DNA of 37,910 nucleotides from an uncultured bacterium (GTDB lineage: Bacteria; Patescibacteriota; Minisyncoccia; Phycocordibacterales; UBA5272), in contig CAIQWN010000030.1 of assembly GCA_903875555.1 (NCBI GenBank), positions 1 through 37,910 on the forward strand, given 5' to 3'. Below the pieces are notes generated by a model. That model ran no database searches. It was not told where the DNA came from and worked only from the letters and a program-made list of their open reading frames with translations. The translations under genes and the position numbers were made by a program. Positions 31,095 to 33,687 of the stretch are shown here, one piece after another (positions within the stretch are counted from its first letter, which is position 1; every line of letters starts with the position of its first letter).

Positions 31095-31883
31095 ATGATG
31101 ATGCCAGATAATAATCTGATCACATCAAAGCAACAAACACGTATTGTAGACCTTGTTTCAGCAGAAGCAAGGAATGTAACCCTCGAAGCACTCGACAAGA
31201 TGAATCTCGAAAGTACGGTAGCGCAAGATAATATCATCACCAAGGGTGGCGATTTTCAAGCACTGCTTACCACTGGTTTTGCTTCTGTCGTGGCTTCTGC
31301 TCTCAACAAGATGTCTGGGCGGAAACACCCACAAACTGAACCGCTCGAGCAATACTTCGCTGAAGTTTTGGGTTACACCCTCGACCTTTCTGGTGTTGTG
31401 TTTCCCGAAAAGGATGGCTTTGTCACTTACGTGGCGGTGCCGTCTGACCTTGATGAAGACCAAATCTTCAGTCGTATCACTACGCACTTCAAGGTTGGGC
31501 AATACGCATACCAGTCGCCAGTCGCAAGCAACATCAACCGCGAAGTAAAGCAGAAACGTCCGCAAGGGCTTTATGTCTTCGCACACGCAGGTGGTGACGA
31601 GCCTGATGCGAAGCATCTCGGCAAGTCCTACGACGACGCAATGGCGGTCAACATGACTTTCATGAATCCCAAGGAATATCTCTTGGCCACAGGCTTCCAT
31701 CGCTTTATGAACAAGGACCACTTCATGGATGTGAAAGGATGGACTCGCACATCCTCTTTGTGGTCCGCTGGCTACTTGGTGGACGGTTACTGGGATCCGA
31801 GCGATGGCGAGCTTGACCTCTGCAATGGCTATCGTGCCCATCGCGGTTCGGGCAGCGGTCCTCGTGAGCTGTTTCTGGGTTAA
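31095..31883 (+). CDS. DGR target (variable) protein with C-terminal C-type-lectin-like VR
   Basis: ORF ends in the VR, LWSAGYLVDGYWDPSDGELDLCNGYRAHRGSGSGPRELFLG; A-specific difference from the downstream TR; three tandem ATGs, and SD spacing favours 31098 or 31101. Confidence 0.93.
   Translation: MMMPDNNLITSKQQTRIVDLVSAEARNVTLEALDKMNLESTVAQDNIITKGGDFQALLTTGFASVVASALNKMSGRKHPQTEPLEQYFAEVLGYTLDLSGVVFPEKDGFVTYVAVPSDLDEDQIFSRITTHFKVGQYAYQSPVASNINREVKQKRPQGLYVFAHAGGDEPDAKHLGKSYDDAMAVNMTFMNPKEYLLATGFHRFMNKDHFMDVKGWTRTSSLWSAGYLVDGYWDPSDGELDLCNGYRAHRGSGSGPRELFLG
31758..31877 (+). repeat. DGR variable repeat (VR)
   Basis: 120 bp ungapped against TR: 102/120 identical; 17 of 18 differences at TR adenines. 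Confidence 0.95.
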
Positions 31884-31897
31884 CTTATACTTAACCC
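31877..31897. promoter_or_regulatory. Hairpin abutting the VR 3' end (candidate target-recognition structure)
   Basis: GGGTTAA-CTTATAC-TTAACCC, perfect 7-bp stem, 7-nt loop. Confidence 0.5.
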
Positions 31898-31930
31898 TTC
31901 TGACTTTTACCCTTGTGTTTGGGTTTGGGT

Positions 31931-31968
31931 CAAAAAGCTTCGCAATTCATTGCGGGGCTTTTTTCTTT
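31931..31968 (+). terminator. Terminator after DGR target gene
   Basis: AAAAAGCTTCGCAA-TTCA-TTGCGGGGCTTTTTT. Confidence 0.75.
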
Positions 31969-32161
31969 TTTATATACTAAAAATGGTGATTGTAAAATCG
32001 ATCTAGCAATTAATTTTTTGCGTGATAACGATTTATTGCCAAAAGAAACTGCCTGCATCATAGTATGTATTTATATATACAACACATTGCTCCCAGTGGA
32101 GGAGAAACACAGAAAATTTGGAAACAGACAATCGGTGAACAGACGCTATGATGTAGAACAA

Positions 32162-32281
32162 TTGTGGTCCGATGGCAACTTGGTGAACGGTTACTGGAAT
32201 CCGAGCAATGGCAAGCTTTACCTCAACAATGGCAATCGTGACAATCGCAATTCGGACAACGGTCCTCGTGAGAAGTTTCTG
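32162..32281 (+). repeat. DGR template repeat (TR)
   Basis: Second copy of VR with AAY/AAG codons where VR has other residues; 31 A in 120 nt by hand count. Confidence 0.95.
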
Positions 32282-32314
32282 CACATAAACCCGACTACTT
32301 GGTCGGGTTTTGTG
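32282..32314. terminator. Stable hairpin immediately 3' of TR
   Basis: CACATAAACCCGAC-TACTTG-GTCGGGTTTTGTG; contains the avd stop codon. Confidence 0.6.
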
Positions 32315-32682
32315 TTATATATTTTATCCATCCATTTGTCATTTTTGATATTTCAATTAACACGCCTTCAATTCTAAAATATGTTTTATCGTTTATGATT
32401 TTTAATTCATATTCTGTGCGAATTAAATGTTTTAATAATTCAAGTGATGTTCTTACGTGTTTAAGTTTTTCTAATTTATCGATTTTGTTTTCAAATGACG
32501 CACTTATAACATTATTCATAACTTCGAGAGTTATGTTTTCTATATGAGTATGAATACCAAGTTTATCTCGTTTCGTTAATTTGTTTCCAGTTTGATACAC
32601 TGTTGCATATAATTGTTTTACAATATGAATAATAGAGATATCAGTAGTTGTTCGGGGGGGGGGTAATTCTAACCTGTTCCAT
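32295..32682 (-). CDS. avd: Avd-like accessory variability determinant (four-helix bundle), antisense to RT; 5' end broken by C10 tract
   Basis: ...IVKQLYATVYQTGNKLTKRDKLGIHTHIENITLEVMNNVISASFENKIDKLEKLKHVRTSLELLKHLIRTEYELKIINDKTYFRIEGVLIEISKMTNGWIKYITQ; ATG at 32682 is in frame only if the tract is 9 or 12 nt. Confidence 0.8.
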
Positions 32683-33687
32683 AATGTTTCTAGTTTAACA
32701 AATCTTTTCGATGCTTGGAATGAATTTAAAAAAGGAAAGAGAAAAAAGAAAGATGTTGCACTCTTTGAGCTTCATTTAGAAGAAAATATTTTTAATTTAC
32801 ATAAAGAACTTCGTAATAAAACATACAATCATAATCCATACGAAGATTTTTATGTTTGTGATCCGAAGCGAAGACATATTCATAAAGCAAATATTAGAGA
32901 TAGGGTAATGCACCAAGCACTTTTTAGAGTTTTGTATAAAGTGTTTGATAAACATTTTATTTACGATTCGTATTCATCGAGAAATGATAAAGGAACACAT
33001 GCTGGTGTGATTCGTCTTAATAATGCTATACGAAAAGTAAGTAAGAACTGGAAGAAAACAGTGTGGGTTCTTAAGTGTGATGTGAGAAAATTCTTTGATA
33101 GCATCGATCATAATATTTTACGAGAGTTGATTTTACAAAAAGTAGACGATAAAGAAATTCTTTGGCTTATAGATATTATATTTTCAAGTTTTGAAAAAGA
33201 AAAATGTAAAGGACTTCCGCTTGGGAATGTTACAAGTCAGTTATTTGCAAATATTTATTTAAACGAACTTGATCAATTCGCAAAACACACTCTAAAGGCA
33301 AAACATTATTTTAGATATTGCGATGATTTTATAATTGTTCATGAAGATAAGAAGTTTTTGGAAATTGTAATTAGAAAGATCGAAGAGTTTTTGAAAAATA
33401 ATTTAAAACTTGAACTTCATCCAAACAAAGTAGAGATACGCAAAGTTTCTCAGGGTATAGATTTTTTAGGTTATGTGATTTTACCTCACGCTATTGTGCT
33501 TCGTACAAAAACTAAAAGAAGAATATCTAGAAAAATTAAAGAAGGTGTAAAACTTTATAACAAAAAACAAATCTCAAAAGAATCTTTTAGATCTATGATT
33601 ACATCGTATCTTGGTGTTTTTTCACACTCTAGATCAAGGAGGGCGACTGATTATTTAAATGAGATCGTTAATGTTTTATCAATTTAA
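32625..33687 (+). CDS. DGR reverse transcriptase; ORF open from 32629, ATG at 32625 joined only if the G10 tract is 9 or 12
   Basis: Manual N-terminal extension ...NLFHNVSSLTNLFDAWNEFKKGKRKKKDVALFELHLEENIFNLHKELRNKTYNHNPYEDFYVCDPKRRHIHKANIRDRVMHQ upstream of the track ORF at 32908; CDVRKFFDSIDH, GLPLGNVTSQLFANIYLNELD, FRYCDDFII. Confidence 0.93.
32654..32663. repeat. G10 homopolymer in the shared 5' region of RT and avd
   Basis: tgttcGGGGGGGGGGtaattct. Confidence 0.95.

Follow-up and report, generated by a model that had tools for sequence, protein, structure and literature searches.

A G10 tract in a diversity-generating retroelement (DGR) is very likely (probability roughly 0.82) a slipped-strand contingency locus that switches the element, and the assembly appears to have caught it in the OFF state. 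The position of the tract, the reading frames, the conservation of a repeat (not of its length), the retention of an ATG and leader in ON and OFF relatives and the adenine-specific divergence at OFF loci are shown by the sequences. Slippage within populations, for which no reads were at hand, the lack of useful Avd or reverse transcriptase (RT) in OFF cells and the resulting switching of retrohoming are all inferred.

The DGR of the window and its G10 tract

The window, meaning the whole stretch of 37,910 nucleotides that was analysed, is contig 30 of a 714 kb genome in 45 contigs, estimated to be 96% complete. A DGR spans positions 31095-33687 (Table 1). No Pfam or NCBIfam match was found for the target gene. 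Between the variable repeat (VR) and the template repeat (TR), 17 of 18 mismatches fall at TR adenines. The RT contains the motifs GLPLGNVTSQ, conserved in relatives, and YCDD; DGR reverse transcriptases are characterised by an SQ motif replacing QGxxxSP. The Avd domain lies within a minus-strand frame that is open from 32690 to 32295. Its best matches were NCBIfam DivGenRetAVD (NF033474, 5.9e-13) and Pfam bAvd (PF22296, 1.5e-9), both below the curated cut-offs, and a purpose-built Avd profile, the seeds of which included the window's own sequence, matched at 9e-33. With an SQ-type RT, an adenine-mismatch TR/VR pair and an Avd, the locus meets these three criteria for a DGR, an assignment inferred from sequence alone and subject to the weak Avd family matches.

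Table 1. Features of the DGR in the window.
Feature	Position	Strand	Remarks
DGR target gene, 262 aa, VR at 3' end	31095..31883	+	ORF ending in VR
Variable repeat (VR)	31758..31877	+	85% match to TR
Template repeat (TR)	32162..32281	+	Paired with VR 31758-31877
avd, retroelement accessory factor	32295..32682	-	ATG at 32682; out of frame at G10
G10 tract (C10 in avd sense)	32654..32663	+	Proposed slipped-strand switch; place kept in relatives
Probable upstream RT start	32625..32666	+	MNNRDISSCSGGG then stop at G10; joins RT frame at 9 or 12
DGR reverse transcriptase body	32664..33687	+	Pfam RVT_1 2.5e-25; alignment with relatives

In two sister RTs (L012:2662-3735 and the RT of L013) an in-frame insert of the VIPAHAGIQ...DSRMRGND type directly precedes the LPLGN motif. 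It resembles a common palindromic repeat and is missing from the window RT.

The G10 tract, the sole G/C run longer than 6 in the window, falls within the overlap of the avd and RT 5' ends. At this length, translation from the plus-strand ATG ends as given in Table 1, and the minus-strand ATG reads MEQVRITPPPNNY followed by a stop. From the tract onwards, the RT frame stays open to 33687 and contains no ATG, GTG or TTG ahead of 32908. The only near-start codon just past the tract in this frame is CTG at 32674 (TTG in the relative L016), which could conceivably serve as a weak RT start. The window avd has no in-frame ATG, GTG or TTG in the interval from the tract to roughly the tenth codon of the Avd domain. 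By arithmetic, removal of one base or addition of two (G9 or G12) opens both frames, giving an RT of 353 aa and an Avd of 128 aa. An earlier, sequence-only reading had claimed this location, coordinates and frames for the tract, the restoration of both genes at 9 or 12 to about these sizes and the absence of an RT-frame start before 32908; upon re-reading of the sequence all three claims held. Going by the consensus tract length, the window assembly probably represents the OFF state, and reads are needed to decide between 9, 10 and 12.

Pattern searches of the whole genome located G8+ runs at only four places, of which three are G9+. These three are distributed one at each of the genome's three DGRs, the other two DGRs having G9 at the equivalent place, while about 0.09 G9+ runs would be expected by chance in a 714 kb genome of 32% GC. 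No RVT_1 genes were found in this genome beyond the three DGRs. The closest relative, L016 (82% RT identity), has the same layout with G11, and both of its genes need 9 or 12.

Since both window frames are broken, the avd/RT pair could be read as decaying pseudogenes. This is all but excluded: the domains are intact, the VR/TR mismatches are adenine-specific and the L016 ortholog keeps the layout at another length.

Repeats and reading frames in related loci

Loci were collected with an RT profile from named genomes, viral contigs and 397 genomes of the order, in collections holding one genome per species. The survey comprised 260 distinct loci, 195 with divergent and 62 with codirectional avd and RT. 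Prevalences and p-values are approximate, as most RTs used to find loci by similarity bear tracts and many of the loci are related.

A poly-C of 7-14 (avd sense) was located inside the 5' end of avd in 138 of the 195 divergent loci, a dinucleotide repeat (CT, GA or CA; mostly CT) at that end in 15, and no repeat in 42. Taken together, 153/195 divergent loci carry a repeat at the avd 5' end versus 1/62 codirectional loci. Named hosts with repeats belong to many Patescibacteria phyla, Saccharimonadota included. The homopolymer is always G on the RT-sense strand. Several dinucleotide-repeat loci have poly-C loci as nearest relatives, and the substitution of CT, GA or CA for poly-C probably means that mutability was retained and the sequence was not, although this remains an inference. 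Dinucleotide repeats of 7-16 units stand in the homopolymer's place at the avd start in L057, L067, L070, L076, L077, L081, L087, L209, L224 and others, and L102 is a composite of C10 followed by a TC repeat. In many of the repeat-free divergent loci (e.g. L018, L040, L106) the ATG stands at the very beginning of the Avd domain (MNDFDIPIFKK type), and these loci appear to be constitutive.

Two rival explanations bear on the run itself. In the first, the G run is a cis element (a G-quadruplex, a binding site or a part of the template RNA) and its position in avd is incidental. The constant G on the RT-sense strand speaks for this, but CT, GA and CA repeats take the place of the run, 42 divergent loci do without any, and a conserved ATG and leader are joined to the run, making a cis element very unlikely. 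In the second, the G10 is an assembly or sequencing error for a G9 (or G12) that leaves both genes intact at all times. Homopolymers are error-prone and both genes need the same correction, but error cannot place runs at one site in 138 loci, nor produce out-of-frame dinucleotide repeats, and most loci would have to be wrong. This explanation is likewise very unlikely. The claim of the sequence-only reading that a sequencing error would account for the observation equally well thus failed for the tract itself; error may still affect the single count in the window. The comparison of tract lengths in relatives, which that reading had proposed as a check, showed a conserved place with variable length and frame.

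An ATG-open frame leads into the repeat in 152 of the 153 repeat loci (300 shuffles: mean 65, maximum 81), and no stop codon was found between repeat and Avd domain in any of the 153. The leading frame is unique in 131 loci, of which 29 are ON (in phase with Avd), 42 need +1 and 60 need +2 or -1. Leader peptides are alike in ON and OFF loci, as in MSQLNFSHTTNS (L075, ON) and MDKLNFSHTTNN (L288, OFF). Close pairs differ in state: L208 (C10, ON) and L281 (C12, OFF) at 85% identity, L258 (C7, ON) and L217 (C9, OFF) at 83%, and L002 (C9, ON) and L031 (C11, OFF) at 80%. On the RT tree, repeat type has a strong phylogenetic signal (20 changes vs 50.5 shuffled), whereas there is no signal for repeat length (74 vs 77) or for ON/OFF state (24 vs 26), the pattern expected of a hypermutable tract under selection.

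Equal use of the three frames was rejected (p=0.004, 131 loci). The ON state falls below one third (p=0.007) and the one-base-too-long state is the commonest (60/131). Frame use is therefore probably not purely random, and the ON deficit is unexplained; OFF may be favoured in most cells, or frameshifting may be leaky in the one-base-too-long state. In 74/153 loci an in-frame ATG, GTG or TTG (mostly TTG or GTG) falls in the interval from the repeat to roughly the tenth codon of the Avd domain, and such internal starts might yield some Avd there at any length. In 48 loci, the window included, no such codon precedes the tract or follows it closely.

A third rival is programmed frameshifting, or transcriptional slippage at the poly-C, by which a low level of Avd (and RT) would be set at any DNA length without a genetic switch. 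The predominance of out-of-frame states and the excess of the -1 state favour it, as does the ability of ribosomes to slip +1 on CCC-C. However, programmed frameshifting needs a fixed offset and all three frames occur, even between close relatives. The replacement by CT/GA repeats, with the unambiguous CT loci spread 3:3:3 across the frames, suits DNA slippage better than homopolymer-specific slippage. Frameshifting as the explanation is considered unlikely.

Some further observations were made on the loci and genomes surveyed. A search for another copy of L122, a locus of the viral collection, with a different tract length returned only L122 itself. Among the other G9+ runs inspected in relatives, those of L253 and, weakly, L230 are at or near avd-like genes and the rest are not. 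At L253 (G001:C28, about 905) a TR-like stretch accompanies an avd whose tract is 11 bases long, and no RT was matched in that genome; the locus could be a DGR remnant, or its RT could be located elsewhere. Genomes G019 and G008 have G9+ runs away from any DGR (e.g. L227, L238, L254, L234, L251), which are perhaps other mutable loci. The RT copies G102:C2:1882-2772 and G012:C21:50364-51188 contain one internal stop codon each.

RT starts and activity of OFF loci

An in-frame RT ATG lies beyond the repeat in 96 of the 153 repeat loci, where the tract therefore gates avd alone. In 41 loci, including the window, no ATG, GTG or TTG was found between the tract and conserved RT sequence. Of these start-less loci with a unique avd frame, 33 have an open upstream RT ATG, and in 32 of the 33 this ATG is ON at the ON length of avd. 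Where a later RT ATG exists, the upstream ATG is co-phased with avd in 11/28 loci, which is the chance level. As a share of unique-frame loci, a co-phased RT ATG was found in 32/34 versus 11/82 (Fisher 6e-17, uncorrected for relatedness). In the codon-aligned antisense frame, an ATG-open frame is present in 36/41 loci needing it and in 16/96 not needing it; given this difference, the possibility that the upstream RT ATG merely reflects an Avd His codon read as its reverse complement was set aside. Because of the co-phasing and the codon-aligned frame in start-less loci, gating of avd and RT together is inferred to be a recurrent layout, probably so in the window's subset and not in general. 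Joint control of RT and Avd by one tract, as claimed in the sequence-only reading, accordingly held for this subset only.

VR/TR pairs were scored as adenine-specific when at least 5 mismatches were present and at least 80% of these were at TR adenines. By this criterion, 46/49 OFF loci and 18/19 ON loci showed adenine-specific divergence, with about 17.7 mismatches each. From the divergence in 46/49 it follows, by inference, that OFF loci were very likely active recently and that the OFF state is not decay. MutS was not found in the window genome or in 12 genus mates searched, and MutL was not found in the window genome; in their absence fast slippage is expected. In the DGR of BPP-1 reconstituted in E. 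coli, Avd is required for retrohoming, and repair frequency was lowest with nonsense mutations in avd (PMC12875486). Out-of-frame lengths should therefore switch mutagenesis off.

The proposed switch and its meaning

In the proposed mechanism, the overlapping 5' coding ends of the divergent avd and RT genes would share G10 as a hypermutable contingency tract, which would gain or lose bases by replication slippage. At length class 9 or 12 in the window, the ATG of avd and, in this subset, that of RT would be joined to their genes and mutagenic retrohoming would become possible. At other lengths translation would end within a few codons and the DGR would be off. The locus meets the criteria for phase variation by simple sequence repeats (SSR) as far as sequence alone allows: a 5' coding repeat with ON and OFF frames is present, and among relatives the repeat is conserved and its length variable. 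Clonal length change and length-dependent expression are inferred. Phase variation, as put forward in the sequence-only reading, is supported by the conserved position, the free length and frame, the dinucleotide replacement and the active OFF loci, with switching within a population still an inference.

The DGR of BPP-1 (mtd, avd, TR, brt) shares the SQ-type RT, Avd and a TR/VR pair with adenine-specific mismatches, but is organised as a codirectional avd-TR-brt operon, whereas here avd and RT are divergent, with 5' ends that meet or overlap at a mutable repeat. With the SSR contingency loci of Neisseria and Campylobacter the window locus shares a mono- or dinucleotide tract in the 5' coding region, frame-dependent ON and OFF states and variable length. 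Unlike in those loci, what is switched is a targeted mutator in its own right, and two divergent genes can be gated by a single tract. Phasevarions, based on phase-variable DNA methyltransferases, are also switches on a system with downstream effects; here target-gene diversification is switched and not methylation. A 2025 review of phase variation does not mention retroelements or Patescibacteria. No prior report of a DGR with phase variation, a homopolymer, slipped-strand mispairing or frameshift was found in the literature searched, which did not cover the surveys of Paul et al. 2017 and Wu et al. 2018. DGRs and slippage switches are each known; their combination may be new, though prior mention in these two main DGR surveys is not excluded.

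According to Roux et al. 2021, targets turn over more slowly in the cellular clades of DGRs, the Patescibacteria-restricted clade 2 among them, than in viral clades; whether control of RT activity or selection is the cause could not be decided in that study (PMC8144416). A 2026 paper called the regulation of DGRs in the wild an exciting frontier (PMC12875486). If true, the slippage switch would answer the question of control raised by Roux et al. 2021 with a concrete mechanism, and it is testable and readable from existing metagenome reads. On a bolder reading, which is likely with the switching itself inferred, much of the Patescibacteria would have placed their DGRs under slipped-strand switching that acts on avd and, in a subset, on RT at the same time. 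A few cells in the ON state would then generate target diversity, and their return to OFF would fix the new variant. Such a system would represent evolvability at two levels, with a generic mutable tract gating a directed mutator.
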